Assembly: GCA_020720045.1 (NCBI GenBank)
Contig: DYPH01000062.1
Coordinates: 1-34,367, forward strand
Origin: Sorangium cellulosum
Lineage (GTDB): Bacteria > Myxococcota_A > Polyangia > Polyangiales > Polyangiaceae
Direction: 5' to 3'
Length of the DNA: 34,367 nucleotides
In this document: one piece after another, positions 8,859 through 29,570 of the stretch
How the letters are laid out: every line of letters starts with the position of its first letter
How positions within the stretch are numbered: position 1 is the stretch's first letter
Program-made: the position numbers and the translations under genes
Notes under the pieces: generated by a model
Told to the model about the DNA's origin: nothing
Database searches by the model: none
The model's input: the letters and a program-made list of their open reading frames with translations, nothing else

Positions 8859-10132
8859 GTGGGTGGCTCGGATTGCCTCAGCGAACAAGATTTTCTTGAA
8901 AAGTTCACTGGGTGGCGGCCGTCCGCTATCGGCCTCCCACCTTGCGCGCTGCGCGGCTTGCCGGGAAGTCGCGGCCCTTCTGCCCTCAGGAACGTTTTCC
9001 CCCCGGCGACGCGACCGCTTGCCTTTGACCTCCTCCCGGGTGACTTCTGTAACCGGATCGAAATTCTTTCGTTTCTCGGCCAAGGCGGCATGGGCACCGT
9101 CTACCGCGCCCATGACCCGACGCTGAATCGTGACGTTGCTCTAACGTTCACTCCGTTCTCCGAGGCGTTCGTTCATCACGAGGCGCGCGCCATGGCGCGT
9201 ATTCGCGACCCGCGCGTCGTCACCGTTCACGAGGTTGTGGCGCGCCCATACATTCGACGGCGTGGTGCCCTGGAACAATCGCTCGGGACCGGCTATTTGG
9301 TGATGGAATGGATTGACGGAGTTGCCTTGCGCCACCACTCAACGTCCGCGGAGGATGTGCTGCGGGTTCTCTTCGATATTGCGCAAGCAATTCACGCAGT
9401 ACACACGGCTGGTGTCGTGCAGTTTGCGCCAAACTCGGTGATTTCGGGCTCGCTCAGTGCAGCGAGCTCGAAGGCGCCTCGACGCGTGGTGGCACGCCCG
9501 GCTACGCGGCCCCCGAAATCTTGCGTGGCGGCTCACCGACGGTAGCTAGCGATATTTTTGCCTATTCTACGCTCGCTCGGGAACTCCTCGCTCAGCGAAG
9601 GGCCGGGGGAGCTGTTTCGGCGAGCCGATTTCTTGCTCTGGTGGCGGCAGGTTGCGCGCCCGACCCGGCCGATCGTCCTCCGTCGATGGTCCCGTTCGTG
9701 GACGCGTTTGCGGAGAGCTCCGCGCCGTCTCCCGCTTCGCAGACGGACACGTTGCGACCGCGGGCATCCCCGTATCGATGGATTGTTGGAGGTGCTCTCG
9801 GAGCGGTCCTCTTAGGACTTGCTGCCCTAATGATGCTGCAGATGCCGCGGGAAAAATGGGTAGGTCTTCGTCCACTACGTGAATTGCCGGTCGCGTCTCC
9901 TGCCGGTAGCCACTTGATTGATATTACCATCGAAAATCACAGAGATTCTCCGATCTCGATCGCCTGGATCGACTTTGATGGTCCACGAGTGCCCTACCAG
10001 ACCGTTCGCCCCGGGGGCATCGCGCACCAGGAGACTTATTCGGGGCACGTCTGGGTCGTGGAGGCGCCGACCGGCTCCGAGCCTCGAGGATTCGTGGCGC
10101 CGGCCCACGGAACCGTCGTCAGCGTGGAGTGA
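8859..10132 (+). pseudogene. Zinc-finger - pseudokinase - TM - VHL beta-domain protein (frameshifted)
   Basis: Joined across three single-base losses (8910-8912 GGG, 8999-9004 C6, 9429-9430 CC), the product reads as one multidomain protein. An N-terminal CLSEQDFLEKF stretch leads to a HLARCAACREVAALL zinc finger. A kinase fold follows: glycine loop LGQGGMGTVYRA, ATP-lysine motif reading VALTF (Lys replaced by Thr at 9144-9146), HTAGVVQFAP joined directly to KLGDFGLAQ with the HRD catalytic loop missing, then GTPGYAAPE and a C-lobe ending DPADRP. One membrane helix lies at about 9778-9841. The C-terminal 70 residues match the VHL beta domain (WIDFDGPRVPY, then TYSGHVW). The kinase is thus probably a membrane pseudokinase with an extracytoplasmic VHL-like sensor. 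The start (GTG 8859) is uncertain. The 3' end overlaps the convergent sigma-factor gene by 14 nt. Confidence 0.75.
9701..9751 (+). repeat. Interspersed repeat module H2, copy 1 (inside coding DNA)
   Basis: A 51-bp stretch matching 11441-11491 at 43 of 51 positions and, over its second half, 24839-24875. The core CGCGCCGTCTCCCGCTT can fold with the following GCAGACGG arm. Here it encodes the linker (AESSAPSPASQTDT) between the pseudokinase C-lobe and the membrane helix, keeping the frame open. Confidence 0.6.
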
Positions 10133-11068: not shown

Positions 11069-11140
11069 GTTCTCCGATCCGGCTCGCCGGGCGGAGACAT
11101 GGGCGTTCTCCGATCCGGCTCGCCGGGCGGAGACATGGGC
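11069..11140. repeat. Perfect 36-bp tandem duplication of repeat module H1
   Basis: Bases 11069-11104 and 11105-11140 are identical 36-bp units containing CTCCG ... CGGAG arms around a CCGGC/GCCGG inner stem. Single copies of the same module occur at 11411-11446, 14815-14850, 24873-24912 and 29529-29567. The tandem lies in the leader or promoter region of the sigma-factor gene. The remainder of 10988-11217 shows no gene. Confidence 0.8.
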
Positions 11141-11217: not shown

Positions 11218-12593
11218 CTAACGGGCGATGATCTTCCCCGACCCGTCGATCGTCAGCGCGACGCGTCGGTACTTCGGGAGCGTGTTCGTGAGGTGCTCGG
11301 TCCCGTCGACGACGCCGAAAATAGCAGGCTCTTTGCCGTTGCCGACGCACTCGACGCCTCCGCCCGCGGGCTTGCACAGGAGGGCGCGGGTCTCGAGCCG
11401 GCTCGACGCGATTGTCTCTGCCCTCGACGCCGGATCGGAGAACGCGTTTGCGTCGAATTCCGCGCCGTCTCCCGCTTGGCGGACGGACGCGTCGGTCGCG
11501 TCGGTCCCCGCGCCGTCGAAGCCTGGGTAGGCGTTTGTTTGCGTGCCGATGATCCAGGACACCAGCACGCCGCCGGCAACCGCTTCTGCTTGCACGTCTT
11601 TCGTCTCGACGTAGCCGCCACAGCCGGGGTCGCCGTGATCGGTCGAAGCGATCACGTAGGGGGTGACGACGTGGTCGCCGGTCGTGAATGCGAGCACCGA
11701 CTCCGCGGCGGTAACGTTCGTTCGTGAAAGTAGAAAAATCGAGGAAATGCCGTCAGGTAAATGGTCGACGGCGAGGGGGGCCGCCTTCGGATCGCAGTAA
11801 GGCTCTGGGATCGGACCGGGGTAGTTCGCTTCTACGTCGTAGCGCTGATGGAGGAGCGGTTTCACCTTCGCCGACCAGGCGGCGCAGTACGAGGTTACCG
11901 TCTTCTCGGAGATGGTACCGATCTGTTGGGGCGCAGCTTCCGGCTTTGATGCGACGGAAACATCCGGAGTGCGCGGCGCCGCCAACCGGGCCGAACCGGG
12001 AGCTCCGAAGACGCGAAATTCGGAGACAACGATCTCACGCCAGGCCTTTTGTGTGCCTGGCACCGCATCGACGACTTCGATCCGAATTTTTTCGCAGGCG
12101 CAATCATAATTCGCTGCATTTCGCGTTTGTTGATCGACAAGTCGACTTCCTGCGCGGTGCCGTTATCGGGGATAATTCTGAGTTTCTTGATCCGGTAATT
12201 TTCGAGAAATAGGTCTTCGATAGTCCCCGACTTCCCCGTCTTTTTGCGGTCGAAACCGACGACGATCCCGATGGAATGTGCGAGCGCACCGGCCGGCAAT
12301 GCGACGTCGATGGATGCGTGAAGATCGCCCGTCTTCCCGTTCCACGCCGTCTCCGGTTTTCCGTCGCAGAGGTGCTCAGGGAAGTCGTGAGGGTTGTCGA
12401 CTTTGGAGGACACGACGACCTTCGCATCGGTCCAAGTCAGCAGATCAACATCCGGAATTGCCGCCTTTTGTGGGGACGGGAGCGCGCTGGCGGCCGCCAA
12501 ACTCGAAGCGGACGGAGCTGGCGTTCGCTTCGTTTCTGTCTTGCACGCACTTGCGGCCAAGAATCCTAAGAGGAGGCAGCTTCGAAGCTTCAT
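11218..12593 (-). pseudogene. Lipoprotein with NADase-type glycan-binding (discoidin-like) domain, frameshifted
   Basis: Two open frames join into one protein of about 458 residues if one base is added in the T6 run at 12087-12092 (A run on the coding strand), restoring APAKKIRIEVVDAVPGTQKAW. The signal peptide ends in a lipobox ASAC (Cys17), followed by a Ser/Ala/Pro linker. The next ~140 residues resemble the discoidin-like NADase-type glycan-binding domain: DGKPETAWNGKTGDLHASID, FLENYRIKKLRII, then WREIVVSEFRVFG. The C-terminal half is unrecognised and has several cysteines (YCAAW, PGCGGY, LLCKPAGGGVECVG). It contains an in-frame insertion encoded by repeat DNA (AGDGAEFDANAFSDPAS). The protein is probably surface-anchored and carbohydrate-binding. 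Confidence 0.7.
11411..11491 (+). repeat. Composite interspersed repeat H1+H2 inside coding DNA
   Basis: Module H1 (11411-11446, with GCCGGATCGGAGAACGCG) is followed directly by H2 (11441-11491). H2 matches 9701-9751 at 43 of 51 positions. The composite is read in-frame by the minus-strand glycan-binding-type lipoprotein gene as an extra, low-complexity loop. Confidence 0.6.
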
Positions 12594-14700: not shown

Positions 14701-14772
14701 TGACCCCTACGGGACTCGAACCCGTGTTACCGCCGTGAGAGGGCGATGTCCTAACCGCTAGACGAAGGGGCC
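14701..14772 (-). tRNA. tRNA-Glu (anticodon CTC), copy 1
   Basis: 72 nt without CCA. The acceptor stem GGCCCCT pairs with AGGGGTC, with A as discriminator. The anticodon loop CTCTCAC gives anticodon CTC, reading GAG. The T arm GGTTCGAGTCC is intact. The 3' CCA is not encoded (CCG follows). The sequence is identical to the copy at 14944-15015. Confidence 0.93.
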
Positions 14773-14814
14773 TTGAAGACCGAAGGTCTCCAAGGTCGCA
14801 CGGTCTACGTATTC

Positions 14815-14850
14815 GTTTCCTCCCGGCGAGACGCCGGATCGGAGAACGCA
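14815..14850 (+). repeat. Interspersed repeat module H1 between tRNA genes
   Basis: It contains CCCGGCGAGACGCCGGAT followed by CGGAGAACGC, the same core as the copy at 24873-24912 read in the other direction. The inner stem CCGGCG/CGCCGG has an AGA loop. It is inserted between the two tRNA-Glu genes. The outer CTCCG arm is degraded (TTTCCTCC). Confidence 0.65.
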
Positions 14851-14902
14851 TTTGCTTACGCAGACCCTGCAACAGGGTGTTTCGCAGCGTGATTTACCAA
14901 AC

Positions 14903-14934
14903 GATGAAGCCCGGCGTTTCCACCGGGCTTCATC
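14903..14934 (-). terminator. Intrinsic terminator after tRNA-Glu copy 2
   Basis: A perfect 12-bp stem (GATGAAGCCCGG with CCGGGCTTCATC) closes an 8-nt loop 9 nt beyond the tRNA 3' end. The minus-strand tail is only weakly T-rich (GTTTGG). It could also be a processing hairpin. Confidence 0.6.
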
Positions 14935-14943
14935 GCTTCGTCG

Positions 14944-15015
14944 TGACCCCTACGGGACTCGAACCCGTGTTACCGCCGTGAGAGGGCGATGTCCTAACCG
15001 CTAGACGAAGGGGCC
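14944..15015 (-). tRNA. tRNA-Glu (anticodon CTC), copy 2
   Basis: It is identical over 72 nt to the copy at 14701-14772, and the sharing extends little beyond the gene. The copies are 243 nt apart on the same strand. The anticodon loop is CTCTCAC. Together with tRNA-Gln upstream it forms a small minus-strand tRNA cluster. Confidence 0.93.
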
Positions 15016-15091
15016 ATTCACGCTCCACGGAATCGGATTGCTCCTCTTCCGTGGTCTCACTCGAAACTCGATCACCCGGCAAGGTGATCGG

Positions 15092-15162
15092 CTGGGGAAC
15101 TAGGATTCGAACCTAGATAGGCGGAATCAGAATCCGCAGTCCTGCCTTTAGACGATTCCCCA
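15092..15162 (-). tRNA. tRNA-Gln (anticodon CTG)
   Basis: 71 nt without CCA. The acceptor stem TGGGGAA pairs with TTCCCCA, with G as discriminator. The anticodon stem GCGGA/TCCGC closes the loop TTCTGAT, giving anticodon CTG (codon CAG). The T arm GGTTCGAATCC is intact. It is the promoter-proximal tRNA of the cluster. Confidence 0.92.
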
Positions 15163-24838: not shown

Positions 24839-24912
24839 GAACTCCGCGCCGTCTCCCGCTTCGCGGACGGGTGCGTTCTCCGATCCGGCGTCTCGCCGGG
24901 CGGAGACAAGCG
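24839..24912 (-). repeat. Composite interspersed repeat H2+H1 upstream of the SGNH-type gene
   Basis: H2 (24839-24875) matches 11455-11491 at 33 of 37 positions. H1 (24873-24912) holds the inner stem CCGGCG/CGCCGG and outer CTCCG/CGGAG. The module order and relative orientation differ from the composite at 11411-11491. The copy is open in the frame of the SGNH-type gene, giving a possible N-terminal extension (ARRDAGSENAPVREAGDGA). Confidence 0.65.
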
Positions 24913-25520: not shown

Positions 25521-26369
25521 TTGCCGCGCCCGCGAGCCCCCTGCTCACGGCTCCTGCTGGCGGCCCCCCAACCGGAAGGCTTTCCGTTGCTCGTTGACGT
25601 TCTCGGCTGTCACGGCGGTGAAACGCCGCGGCACAAGACCTCTGCGTTCCTCCTCGATGGGCGCCTCGCCCTCGACGCGGGGGCGCTGGCGTCGATGTTG
25701 ACGATCGAGGAGCAGTGCGCCCTGGAGGCGGTGGTCGTCAGCCACGCCCACCTCGACCATGTGCGCGATCTGGCGGGCATTCTCGACAACCGCGTGCAGA
25801 GCGGTGCCGGCCTCCTTCGCGTGTACGCCCCCGCGGAGACGATCGCCGTTCTGAAGGCCCATTTCTTCAACGGGCTCCTCTGGCCCGATTTTACACGGAT
25901 TCCGAGCGTCGATGCCCCGTCGCTGGCGCTGCTTCCGCTCGCCTGGGAGCAGCCGAAGTCGCTCTTGGATGGGGCGTTTACAGTCACGGCGGTTCCGGTG
26001 ACCCACACCATCGACTGCGCCGGATTTGTCGTTGCGGCGGGACGGGCGGGGGCGGCAGCGCTCGGCTATACCGGCGACACCGGGCCGACCGACCGCTTTT
26101 GGGAGGTCCTCGACGCCACACCGAACGTGCGTCTCCTCCTCGCGGAAGTGAGCCTCCCGGAGAGCCAGGGGCACCTCGCGCGCCTCTCCGGCCACCACAC
26201 GCCGACGACGCTGGCGAACGATCTCGAGAAGCTCCGCGTGCATTCCCGAATCGATACGCTGATTTACCACATTAAGCCGGTCTTCGAGGCGGAGACCCAC
26301 CGGGAGATCGCCCGCGTCCTCCCGTCGAACGTGCACATCCCGAAGCTCGGCGACCGCTTCCGTCTATGA
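25521..26369 (+). CDS. MBL-fold hydrolase, class II cyclic-nucleotide phosphodiesterase-like
   Basis: 282 residues from TTG 25521; a later TTG at 25587, nearer the conserved VLGCHGG, is equally possible. The motif GCHGGETPRHKTSAFLLDG fits class II cAMP phosphodiesterases (CpdP/PDE1). Metal ligands are visible in SHAHLDHVRD, VTHTID, YTGDTGPTD and SGHHTP, with a late His in IYHIKP. It probably hydrolyses a cyclic nucleotide or a related phosphodiester in the cytoplasm. The stop overlaps the next start as ATGA, coupling it to the first GIDE-like gene. Confidence 0.82.
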   Translation: MPRPRAPCSRLLLAAPQPEGFPLLVDVLGCHGGETPRHKTSAFLLDGRLALDAGALASMLTIEEQCALEAVVVSHAHLDHVRDLAGILDNRVQSGAGLLRVYAPAETIAVLKAHFFNGLLWPDFTRIPSVDAPSLALLPLAWEQPKSLLDGAFTVTAVPVTHTIDCAGFVVAAGRAGAAALGYTGDTGPTDRFWEVLDATPNVRLLLAEVSLPESQGHLARLSGHHTPTTLANDLEKLRVHSRIDTLIYHIKPVFEAETHREIARVLPSNVHIPKLGDRFRL

Positions 26370-27508
26370 GTATGCGACGGCGAATCCTGTTTCTCACGGC
26401 GGGGCTTGGCTGTTGGGGCCTGAGCGTCGTCGGCGCGTGTCTTGCCGAGGCCTACGATGCGGGCCGCCGGCGGGTTCGCGCCCACGAGACGTCTCGAGGG
26501 TTCTCCCCGACGCCGATCGTTGGCGGCGGTGCGCTTGCCGAAGGGCCGGTGGTGCTCGAGGGGCGCGTCGCCTACGCAACCGAAGCGAACCACGCGATGT
26601 TTGTGGAGTTTATCCAGGAAGGGGCCGAGAGCGAGAGCTCGGGAAGCTGGAGCTACCGCTGGACGGAGCGCGCGCGTCGCCTCACGATCGCGCCGTTTTA
26701 CCTCGAGACGGCGGCTGGCCGCGTGCGCGTCGAGCCGGAGCCGGGGCACGCCCAACTCGCCGATTCCCTGGAAGGGAAAATCCTCGTGCCGACCGAGGAA
26801 GAAGCGAAGCGCTTCAAGCCTTTGAACGACGGCGCGCCGATGCGTAAACGGGTAGCGACCCTCGTTTCCGGCGAGCACGTGTGGGTCGTTGGGCGGCTTA
26901 CCGGCGGCGACGACCCCGAAGGGGAGCGCGTGGCGAACGTGGCCAGTTACCGCGCGAACGCGAAGGCCGAATCGCTCGTTCTGCGTGGCGCGCCGTCGCT
27001 CCTCGTTTCGTCGCTCTCGCTCGAGAGTCATTTTGACGAGCGCGGGCACATGCATGGTCGGGATCGCAACGTTTACGGCCTCTTCGCGCTCGTTCCGCTC
27101 GTCGTGGCGGGTCGCTTCGCCGACCGTGCCTTCGGCGTGGCGGTGCGGGGGCGGATCGCCCAGGTGACCGATTTGAAGGACGATGACGGCGATCTGACCG
27201 GCCACCGGCTGCTGGTCGATACGCCGCTTCGACGGATCGAGACCGACGTTTCGGTCCGCGTCATCGCCCACCCGACCGACACGATCGCCCTTCGCCTCGG
27301 CAGGATGAGCGAAAACCTCGGGAACGAGCCGGCGTACACGCCCGGTGAGGGGGGCGTACTCCTTGCGGCCTGGTTCGTCGTTGCGGTCGTCGCGACCATT
27401 CTCCGGGCACGCGGACGGGTACTCCCTTGGTATCGCTCGGAAAAGGCGCTCCTCGTCGACACAGGCACCGGCCGCCTCGCCGACTCGATTCAGGAGAACC
27501 GGGTCTAG
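26366..27508 (+). CDS. GIDE/MULAN-like membrane protein (copy A)
   Basis: 380 residues. An N-terminal hydrophobic segment is followed by a beta-rich domain: VVLEGRVAYATEAN, an APFYLETAAGRVRVEPE strand pair, KRVATLVSGEHVWVVGRLTG, and SLVLRGAPSLLVSS, then membrane segments near residues 230-245 and 330-347. The order EGxV / PF-L-x-x-x-GRV / G-x-x-V-x-V-x-G / S-x-x matches the GIDE (BAM) domain of MUL1-type proteins; no RING finger is present. Bacterial functions are unknown. It is coupled to the phosphodiesterase gene by a 4-nt overlap. A paralogue of the same architecture follows the broken oxygenase. Confidence 0.65.
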   Translation: MSMRRRILFLTAGLGCWGLSVVGACLAEAYDAGRRRVRAHETSRGFSPTPIVGGGALAEGPVVLEGRVAYATEANHAMFVEFIQEGAESESSGSWSYRWTERARRLTIAPFYLETAAGRVRVEPEPGHAQLADSLEGKILVPTEEEAKRFKPLNDGAPMRKRVATLVSGEHVWVVGRLTGGDDPEGERVANVASYRANAKAESLVLRGAPSLLVSSLSLESHFDERGHMHGRDRNVYGLFALVPLVVAGRFADRAFGVAVRGRIAQVTDLKDDDGDLTGHRLLVDTPLRRIETDVSVRVIAHPTDTIALRLGRMSENLGNEPAYTPGEGGVLLAAWFVVAVVATILRARGRVLPWYRSEKALLVDTGTGRLADSIQENRV

Positions 27509-27816
27509 CGCCGCTTGCGCGCCGCACGTAACCGTGGGTAATTTCACGGATGGCCGCCGCCCCCTTCGATCCGCTTGCCGAAGTTGCAGAACAACTCCGC
27601 GGCCGTTTCGCGGTGCCCTTTGTGCGCGTCGTTGATCGGTTCCTCGACGAGGCCGCCCGCGACGAGCTCAAGGCGCGGATTACGGCGCTTTCTCCGGCGC
27701 TTGCGCCGATTTCGGCCGCGGAAGGGATGGTCGTTCGGACCGACATCCGCAACAACGAGCGGGCTGTCTTTGACGACGTCCCTCTGGGCGACGCGCTCTT
27801 CGCGGCAGCGCGCCCC

Positions 27817-27890
27817 AGTTGAAGTGGGCCCGCCGTCTCTCGCGACGCCTCCGTCAGGGAATTTGCTGGCGGTCGCGAACGGACGGGCCC
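27817..27890 (+). mobile_element. Palindromic hairpin element E1
   Basis: It starts AGTT, then GGGCCCGCCGTCTC, and ends ACGGACGGGCCC. It folds into nested stems: outer GGGCCCG/CGGGCCC, middle TCGCGAC/GTCGCGA, inner CCGTCAG/CTGGCGG with a loop of about 8 nt. It interrupts the oxygenase gene between ARP and FLPET. It has no coding capacity and is MITE/REP-like in size. Element E2 at 28188-28255 is an inverted relative. Confidence 0.72.
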
Positions 27891-28187
27891 CTTTCTGCCG
27901 GAGACGCTCCGCGGGATGCCGCGGACGACCGACACCGACGGACCGACTTGGGGCGCCAGCGGTCTCAATGAGCGTTTCCGTGGCTACCGGTACCGGCCTG
28001 GGCAGCGTTTCGCGCCCCATTACGACGGCTGTTTTGCCCGCAACGCCGAGGAGCGGAGCGCGATTACCTTCTTGATTTACCTCGATGAAGGCTTCGTCGG
28101 CGGCGAGACGCGCATCCTCGATTGGTCGGTCACCGTCGCCCCGAAGAAGGGGTCGCTCTTTGTGTTTGATCACTACGTGCTGCACGT

Positions 28188-28255
28188 GGCCCGTCCGTCG
28201 GCGTCGACCAGCCAAGGTGCTGGCCGCGGCGACGCCGGAGACGGCGGGCCCAACT
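28188..28255 (-). mobile_element. Palindromic hairpin element E2
   Basis: Read on the minus strand it begins AGTTGGGCCCGCCGTCTC and ends ACGGACGGGCC, like E1. The middle stem is CGGCGTCG/CGACGCCG and the inner stem CCAGC/GCTGG around CAAGGT. Stem sequences differ from E1 but pairing is preserved. It sits just after the distal catalytic-His codon of the oxygenase; its 68-nt length shifts the frame. Confidence 0.7.
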
Positions 28256-28364
28256 ACCCGCGGCGGTCGTGGAGGCCGGTGAGAAGCACGTGCTCCGTTC
28301 GGACGTGATGTACCGCCGTCGCAAACTCGGATTCCGCCTGTGCTAGGCCTTCCGACGGGGAGGG

Positions 28365-29570
28365 GTGCGCGTGAAACACTGGGTTGTGCGTGGTGGGGTC
28401 CTTGCGGCGGGCTGCGTGGCGTCGGGCTTTTCGCTCGTTTCGCCGCCGGTGGCGCTGGGGATGGTCGGCCTGCTTGTGGCGACTCAGGTCGTCGAGGCGG
28501 TCGGCGCCGTCTTCCGCTGGCAGCGCTCGCGGGCGCGGGCGGCTGGGTTTCGGGCGTCGCCGTCGGTCGATCTCCGCGCCCAGGCGTCCAAAAGCCGGGT
28601 CGTCCTCCATGGGACGGTCTCCTACGCGCGCGCCGCGAAGCAGGCGATGTCTCTCAAATTTATTCAGGAGGGGACCGAGGAGGAGAACTCGGGGAACTGG
28701 AGCCATCGGTGGACGGAGCGGTCCCGCAAGCTCACGGTCGCCCCGTTCTACCTGGAGACCGACGTGGGGCGTGTGCGTGTGGAGCCGGAGGCGGGGCATG
28801 CGCGCTTGGCCGACTCCTTCGAAGGGAAGATTCTCGTTCCGACGAAAGAGGAGCGGCGTGAGCTCGGGGGGCGTGCGAAAGGGCCGCTACGGAAGCGGGT
28901 GGCGACGCTCGTCCCTGGGGAGGCGGTCTGGGTCGTCGGCGTGCTCAGCGCCGGCGTCGACCCGGAAGCGAGCGCGGCGGAGTCGCTTCATGCCGTCGAT
29001 TATCGGCAAAATTCGGCCCCTTCGGCGCTTGTCGTGCGCGGCGATCCGACGCTGCTCGTGTCGTCGATTTCTCTCGAGGAGCACTTCGAGGGGCGCGCAC
29101 GGCGCCATGGGCGGGATGCGCTGACCTACGCGCTCTTCACGCTTTTGGCGCTGGTGCTCTGGGCGTCGTTCGGCGACCGCGTCGTCGGCGTCACGGAACG
29201 GGGGCGGGTGACGAAGGTCACCGCGGTCACCGACGACGGCACTGTGACCGGCCACCGCCTCGAGGTCGCGACGTCGCGCGGCCCCGTTGCCGGGCAAATC
29301 GACGCCGACGTCCGCATTGGGCGCTTTTCGCACAACCTCGGCGCAAACGCCGTGTTCGGCACCATCGAGTTCGCCTTTCTCATGAACGCGTGGATCCTCC
29401 TCGGCGGGTTTTCGATGCTGCTCGCGGTTCGCGGACGCCGATTGCCTTGGTTTCATTCGGAGAAATCGCTCTTGGTCGAAAGCGGGAGCGGGAAGCTCCC
29501 GCGAGGCGCACGCGACAGCGGGGACGACGCGTTTGTCTCCGCCCGGCGAGCCGGATCGGAGAACGCGTAG
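28365..29570 (+). CDS. GIDE/MULAN-like membrane protein (copy B)
   Basis: 401 residues from GTG 28365 (or 28371), preceded by GGGGAGGGG. The layout is as copy A: N-terminal membrane segments, SRVVLHGTVSYA, APFYLETDVGRVRVEPE, KRVATLVPGEAVWVVGVLSAG, SALVVRGDPTLLVSS, then two membrane regions and the shared RGRRLPWFHSEKSLLVESGSG tail motif split by a few changes. The last ~15 residues (VSARRAGSENA) come from repeat module H1, which replaces the natural C-terminal tail seen in copy A. Roughly half of residues appear shared with copy A, judged by eye. It follows the broken oxygenase by 18 nt. Confidence 0.65.
   Translation: MRVKHWVVRGGVLAAGCVASGFSLVSPPVALGMVGLLVATQVVEAVGAVFRWQRSRARAAGFRASPSVDLRAQASKSRVVLHGTVSYARAAKQAMSLKFIQEGTEEENSGNWSHRWTERSRKLTVAPFYLETDVGRVRVEPEAGHARLADSFEGKILVPTKEERRELGGRAKGPLRKRVATLVPGEAVWVVGVLSAGVDPEASAAESLHAVDYRQNSAPSALVVRGDPTLLVSSISLEEHFEGRARRHGRDALTYALFTLLALVLWASFGDRVVGVTERGRVTKVTAVTDDGTVTGHRLEVATSRGPVAGQIDADVRIGRFSHNLGANAVFGTIEFAFLMNAWILLGGFSMLLAVRGRRLPWFHSEKSLLVESGSGKLPRGARDSGDDAFVSARRAGSENA
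29529..29567 (+). repeat. Interspersed repeat module H1 at a gene 3' end
   Basis: GTCTCCGCCCGGCGAG followed by CCGGATCGGAGAACGCG; inner stem CCGGC/GCCGG. It supplies the final codons of GIDE-like copy B; the TAG stop at 29568 lies just outside it. Confidence 0.65.

Follow-up and report, generated by a model that had tools for sequence, protein, structure and literature searches.

A genus-specific 75-nt palindromic element that lies twice in a disrupted oxygenase gene of Sorangium cellulosum

A gene for a 2OG-Fe(II) oxygenase in Sorangium cellulosum contains two long hairpins of opposite orientation, termed E1 and E2, and the locus raises the question of what such hairpins are and by what means they entered a gene. 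The DNA analysed, referred to as the window, is a stretch of 34,367 nucleotides (contig DYPH01000062.1), and its features are collected in Table 1. A first-pass annotation, made from the letters alone, had described two inverted hairpins with covarying stems within a single gene, and both are indeed found there: a repeat search of the window returns an inverted pair at 27825-27898 and 28179-28252 (74 nt, 73% complementarity), and the single strands of E1 and E2 have folding energies of -45.2 and -48.3 kcal/mol (z -4.0 and -2.9). The stems that it named are correct, both the type-1 and type-2 versions listed in the table and CCGTCAG/CTGGCGG against CCAGC/GCTGG. Its shared AGTT end does not hold, as in E1 this motif lies inside a variable 10-nt tag whilst in E2 it stands directly at GGGCCC (GCGGGTAGTT). 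Parts of the E1/E2 interval match dozens of places in the same genome (G000), with E values down to 8e-30, and the hairpins are therefore not a chance occurrence. A search of the window with Rfam 15 returned only three tRNAs, with no match for E1 or E2 at the gathering score; three tRNA genes stand in a row at 14701-15162 on the minus strand.

Table 1. Features of the window, with strand and the basis of each assignment
Feature	Position	Strand	Basis or detail
E1, complete 75-nt element	27817..27891	+	10-nt tag region CAGTTGAAGT and 65-nt hairpin
E1 hairpin body	27826..27890	+	type-1 stem TCGCGA/TCGCGA
E2, 75-nt model match	about 28187..28261	-	family covariance model
E2 hairpin body	28187..28251	-	type-2 stem CGGCGTCG/CGACGCCG
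Disrupted 2OG-Fe(II) oxygenase gene (pseudogene)	27550..28345	+	PF13640, E 2.5e-9; homologues without inserts
Oxygenase host sequence	27550-27816, 27892-28190, 28265-28345	+	remainder after both blocks are removed
Family-2 copy (37-nt core)	9715..9751	+	model R2, 55.8 bits
Family-2 copy, in frame in a coding stretch on the minus strand (DASVRQAGDGAEFDANAF)	11455..11491	+	62.0 bits
Family-2 copy	24839..24875	+	60.4 bits

Both hairpins damage the gene in which they lie. E1, whose exact end is ambiguous by one C, enters the host sequence at GCGCGCCCC^TTTCTGCCG in a phase in which its tag reads AGT TGA, which places an in-frame TGA at 27820-27822. At E2 a block of about 74 nt, from about 28191 to 28264, has to be removed to restore the oxygenase frame, so that this insertion causes a frameshift. 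With both blocks omitted the flanks read ...LFAAARP|FLPETLRG... and ...HYVLHVA|VVEAGEKHVLRSDVMYRR..., and oxygenase homologues from three other genera are continuous through both insertion points and contain neither segment, with which the predicted empty site of E1 is consistent. The oxygenase gene looks like a recent pseudogene that has been hit twice. If, as we infer, one insertion preceded the other, the second would have cost nothing in a gene that was already broken, and the presence of two elements in one gene, which the first-pass annotation had found striking, becomes less so. It had also asked whether orthologous oxygenases carry these segments as normal sequence and whether other copies exist; the orthologues lack them and other copies are numerous. 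The location of E1 and E2 inside a gene of high G+C content would suit ordinary coding sequence that forms hairpins by chance, a reading that is refuted by the orthologues, by the stop codon and frameshift and by the many copies elsewhere in the genome, and whose probability is negligible. The broken gene is flanked by two paralogous genes (26366-27508 and 28365-29570) that encode similar proteins (RVEPEPGHAQLADSLEGKILVPTEEE and RVEPEAGHARLADSFEGKILVPTKEE). The search of the assembly of the sister species (G001) gave no detectable copy of the oxygenase gene, for which reason empty sites were taken from other loci and from other genera.

E1 and E2 are members of one 75-nt palindromic family, family 1, the unit of which consists of a 10-nt tag (CTGTNGAAGT) followed by a 65-nt bulged hairpin with GGGCCC feet at both its ends. 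After the tag the consensus is GGGCCCG-CCGT-(CTC)-TCGCGA-(CGCCK)-CCGCCAG-loop-CTGGCGG-TCGCGA-ACGG-(A)-CGGGCCC, with a CTC bulge in the 5' arm and a one-base bulge, A, in the 3' arm. When 41 copies were used to build a covariance model, at least 150 matches to it were obtained in G000 (6.34 Mb in 357 contigs), the weakest of which are pieces at contig ends. In the surrounding DNA 139 copies could be read in 105 places, 29 of which hold two or three tandem copies arranged head-to-tail and usually with a 75-nt period. Since at least a dozen contigs end within an element or array, this copy number is probably an underestimate. At least 82 copies occur in the sister species, and none were found in 57 further genomes from the same family and order with filters whose greater strictness may lose weak matches. 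Family 1 is genus-specific, and the search of the genome and its relatives that the first-pass annotation had proposed thus yields many further copies in the source genome and the sister species. Two contigs of G000, C302 (L014) and C274 (L015), carry a family-1 element with identical flanks together with a matching family-2 pair, representing either a duplicated segment or a redundant assembly. Moreover, at L043 (the end of C187) and L045 (the start of C60) a type-2 element is bordered by one and the same short sequence, on the one side in the first and on the other side in the second, as though a larger palindrome had broken the assembly.

The pairing of the hairpin is conserved across the family. 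Over the 41 copies 96% of the cells are paired and 19 are changed on both sides, compared with 3.3 in shuffles, and slid controls were all much lower. In helix 2 there are three pairs of which both partners have changed in several copies (U-A to C-G, C-G to G-C and A-U to U-A), so that the covariance model once suggested for this element does contain compensatory pairs. The stem type of E2 occurs in five of the 41 aligned copies and both versions are genome-wide subfamilies, and hence the difference between E1 and E2 is an older subfamily divergence that did not arise within the oxygenase gene; the covariation first read from the two copies is real on the scale of the genome and is not local to this gene. 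The view of a folded, REP-like mobile repeat with a hairpin under selection is in this way borne out by the copies, the covariance, the empty sites and the orthologues.

Evidence of mobility comes from the sister species, which is about 93% identical to G000 over shared loci and in which the flanks of 22 family-1 loci were searched and the sites aligned. It is empty at L023, L020, L026, L011 and L009, and likewise at L024, where the site is a terminator-like hairpin. The clearest empty site reads GAATCGGGCCCGGCCC^GCGT, with the unit of G000 inserted at the caret. Judged against these sites the insertions are exact, 75-76 nt in length and located 3' of a GGCCC-like target. Elsewhere both species carry the element, in unequal numbers at L010 (one against three) and L013 (two against one) and with two copies in each at L029. 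At L028 the sister species has GGGCCC-TTGTTGAAGT-GGGCCC without the hairpin body, a form that is as expected from slippage between GGGCCC repeats and may have arisen so, or may be the ancestral site. Similar hairpin-less remnants, GGGCCC-N10-GGGCCC or a solo CTGTTGAAGTGGG, are seen at L051:1557-1585, at L178 in the sister species and in the left flanks of L116 and L166, and are probably deletion scars.

The target is sharply defined. The five bases before the unit, read at 80 places, match GGCCC perfectly in 34 (background 0.30%) and with at most one mismatch in 50 (background 3.3%). No target duplication extends beyond GGCCC, and a duplication of GGCCC itself would be hidden by the GGGCCC end of the element. 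That E1 and E2 are insertions of a mobile, non-autonomous palindromic element is virtually certain. Spread through an RNA copy, in the manner of retrotransposition, was an alternative that the first-pass annotation had left standing, and the hairpin folds well as RNA with stems that covary and G-U pairs among its variants; the insertions are target-specific and exact at both ends, however, and the copies have no obvious tail or truncation bias, which makes this route very improbable.

Many copies reside within genes. On the basis of a codon-usage score over 150 bp on each side, with thresholds of our own that make the classes approximate, 89 clusters were divided into 36 that are noncoding, 29 with coding signal on one side only, five between two genes and 19 inside a gene. 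At 15 of the 19 gene-internal sites the element is in frame and read through without a stop. The insert peptides use four frames, the commonest being ARPFATASxFxGGGVARDGGPTSTG, and Pfam matches extend across the insert or lie on both sides of it for DUF924, the P-type ATPase HAD domain, MbnB/TglH, 3-hydroxyacyl-CoA dehydrogenase, MatE, glyoxalase, HATPase_c, thiamine phosphate synthase and aldehyde dehydrogenase. Three proteins of the sister species lack exactly the 25 residues, namely the DUF924 protein, the P-type ATPase and a 769-residue frame that has no Pfam match. It is probable from such reading frames that the inserts are translated. The unit amounts to 25 codons and is open in all six frames with the tag CTGTGGAAGT, one frame being closed with CTGTTGAAGT; this anatomy accounts for the keeping of frame and selection is not required. 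Since the unit is almost always 75 nt, frame keeping by itself was dropped as evidence of selection and was used only alongside the Pfam and sister-protein evidence. The copies now seen in genes would be those that selection has tolerated, as a unit of 25 codons that in most versions has no stop in six frames could be. The location of 70 of the 89 clusters outside genes or at their edges would also fit parts that are maintained by the host, such as terminators, RNA stabilisers or DNA-binding sites, and spread by gene conversion. Such parts would not be expected to show precise presence and absence at orthologous sites in close relatives, to interrupt conserved domains or to destroy a gene as in the oxygenase, and this explanation is considered highly unlikely.

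A second family, family 2, shares the core of the hairpin. In G000 it is 45 nt in length, (TTTGNNN)GAACTCCGCG-CCGT-(CTC)-CCGC-TTC-GCGG-ACGG-(A)-CGCG, and has the same CCGT/ACGG stem and the same two bulges as family 1, with the tag GAA(C/G)T. A model trained solely on family 2 also matches family-1 copies, with low scores and with the feet aligned in register. There are at least 128 copies in G000 and at least 105 in the sister species, and none in 57 other relatives, and arrays contain up to seven copies. The target in this case is GCG, which precedes 32 of 42 first copies against a background of 4.7%, and none of them follows GGCCC. Seven clusters lie inside a gene and are always in frame, giving for example repeated NASVGEARDGAEFDA. 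The orthologous copies that the two species have near L049 are distinguished by a paired change, CCGC..GCGG in one and CGGC..GCCG in the other, and over 16 distinct copies covariation is confined to a single pair. The idea that all three copies in the window are coding was discarded, as only the one at 11455-11491 has coding signal on both sides. Family-2 loci also include L036, L120, L231, L233 and L257, which are often arranged in tandem and in some cases predicted to be translated (NASVREAGDGAEF repeats).

A third dispersed repeat, TTCTCCGATCCGGCGTC..GCCGGGCGGAGAA, is itself a hairpin and often abuts family 2. It occurs in the window at 24876-24892 on the plus strand and at 11426-11442 and 14830-14846 on the minus strand, with a variant, TTCTCCGATCCGGCTCG, at 11070, 11106 and 29547. 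The window has seven matches compared with 0.4 expected, and many near-identical copies are present in the sister species.

Each of the two families inserts after a copy of its own 3' end, which fits the proposal that the foot of the hairpin acts like a guide and so gives the target its likeness to that end. The best overall explanation, to which a probability of roughly 0.55 is given, is that of a genus-specific, non-autonomous palindromic element that is moved as folded single-stranded DNA by a Y1/HUH transposase. The moving form would be a single strand folded as a hairpin, which a REP-associated Y1/HUH transposase (RAYT or IS200-IS605 type) would cut and join, whilst the extra tandem copies and the hairpin-less scars would be products of slippage between GGGCCC repeats. 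It is known that TnpA-REP proteins recognise a tag and a bulged hairpin and that guide bases 5' of the hairpin select the cut site (PMC8266576). Among family-1 copies, deviating hairpin feet are not accompanied by matching deviating targets (p 0.32 and 0.56).

The genome contains a candidate for such an enzyme. G000 has 12 matches (L048-L059), one of them at C219:24614-25588, to a Y1 (HUH) transposase-like protein of about 320 residues, with further loci in the sister species (L192, L215 and L220-L228). The only named relative in NCBIfam is REP_Tyr_transpos (NF047646), at 40.9 bits compared with a cut-off of 80. The genes are part of a unit of 1.4 kb that is bounded by hairpins and whose left end and leader contain GGCAAATTCGC and CCAGGGAATTTGCGTTGG, close to the loop versions CAGCAAATTCGCTGG and CCAGGGAATTTGCTGG of the element. 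For the transposase with matching ends that the first-pass annotation had suggested looking for, a TnpA-REP-like Y1 candidate is present, and the ends of its unit differ from those of the family-1 element. The left-end hairpin of the Y1 unit was accordingly rejected as the parent of the element, as only the loop motif is common to both. Cognate Y1 transposases of REPs typically have REPs on their flanks; here the Y1 transposase was rejected as a flanking partner, the density of elements near Y1 genes showing no enrichment over that elsewhere. Homologues with 30-37% identity were found in 22 further genomes from the family and order, among them relatives that lack the elements. A HUH mechanism is slightly favoured for the movement of the element; that the Y1 family of G000, the likeliest candidate, is the mover is a more tentative proposal, suggested by the shared loop motifs and not helped by adjacency.

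The same element could be served by another enzyme, such as a tyrosine recombinase of the integron or another type, a recombinase of the IS110 type or a Y1 protein that the fragmented assembly lacks. The lack of enrichment near Y1 genes is in keeping with this, as is the bulged hairpin, since recognition of such a hairpin as a folded single strand characterises integron attC sites as well. Insertion beside a short fixed target with no further duplication is, on the other hand, typical of the IS200/IS605 type, and the participation of a different enzyme is judged rather unlikely. The two families may even belong to a superfamily of coding hairpins in which the foot sets the target (GGGCCC for GGCCC and CGCG for GCG) and the shared bulged core is bound by one enzyme, although this is a speculative extension that is more doubtful still. 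Were the guide role of the foot correct, a change of foot would retarget the element, which would then be a single-strand mobile element of very small size whose target can be altered. If the superfamily exists, a length of 75 or 45 nt (25 or 15 codons with open frames) would suit life in genes.

The closest parallels are found among several groups of repeats. The Rickettsia palindromic elements, or RPEs (Ogata et al. 2000, 2002), are described in PMC10969869, PMC3767692 and PMC3733652 as palindromes that lie in frame inside protein genes. Like them, the present elements are palindromic, dispersed and non-autonomous, are absent from orthologues, as in the sister proteins that lack the insert, and lie in frame in unrelated protein genes, where they are predicted to be translated. 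The differences are that RPEs are about 100-150 bp, compared with 75 and 45 nt here, that their hosts are obligate intracellular alphaproteobacteria rather than Myxococcota, and that they end in CGTC (PMC3733652), whereas here CGTC is internal (GGGCCCGCCGTCTC) and the termini are the tag and GGGCCC. Moreover, the elements described here have GGGCCC or CGCG feet, an exact GGCCC or GCG target and head-to-tail arrays. This separation from RPEs is based on published descriptions, on the tag and on Rfam.

With REPs and REPtrons (TnpA-REP, RAYT; PMC3733652, PMC8266576) the element has in common a hairpin present in many copies, whose bulge and 5' tag are conserved, subfamilies whose stems differ by compensatory changes, restriction to a genus and a REP-type Y1 transposase in the genome. 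Unlike REPs, which are tagged GTAG, are 20-40 bp in length and extragenic and rarely form head-to-tail dimers, it has a foot of GAAGT-GGGCCC or GAACTCC-GCG and a 65-nt hairpin in a 75-nt unit, lies inside genes in the gene-internal clusters counted above and usually forms head-to-tail arrays; many copies are predicted to be translated and no transposase stands alongside. The element works like RPEs and REPs but has the tag of neither, and it is accordingly not counted as a member of either group. The IS200/IS605 elements IS608 and ISDra2 likewise insert 3' of a short fixed target with a subterminal hairpin and no further target duplication, a pattern found here with duplication of GGCCC itself being possible. 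Guide bases set the target in that family (PMC8266576), whilst the guide here is a proposal, and the present element differs in that it carries no gene, has one hairpin instead of two and has a target that is a copy of its own 3' end. MITEs, including translated ones (PMC10969869), are also small, non-autonomous and sometimes translated, but their ends are inverted repeats shared with a parent IS and their insertion as a rule duplicates the target; here no duplication was found outside GGCCC and the ends are unlike those of the Y1 unit, the one IS-type unit compared. A search of the open literature, which excludes subscription papers, returned no report of such elements in Myxococcota.

To our knowledge, the manner in which RPEs enter genes has been an open question for over 20 years, and the hosts of RPEs are hard to work with. 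The RPE-like behaviour described here belongs to an unrelated lineage for which a sister species provides clean empty sites and in which there are a sharp target and a candidate REP-type transposase, so that the mechanism becomes testable in vitro. The elements also offer a natural series of proteins in which a form carrying some 25 extra residues can be set against one that lacks them, which is useful for asking what proteins tolerate, and they serve as a warning that gene calls in the genus include mobile peptide inserts. The sequence FATASEFPGGGVAR is a predicted peptide of this kind inside the DUF924 protein.
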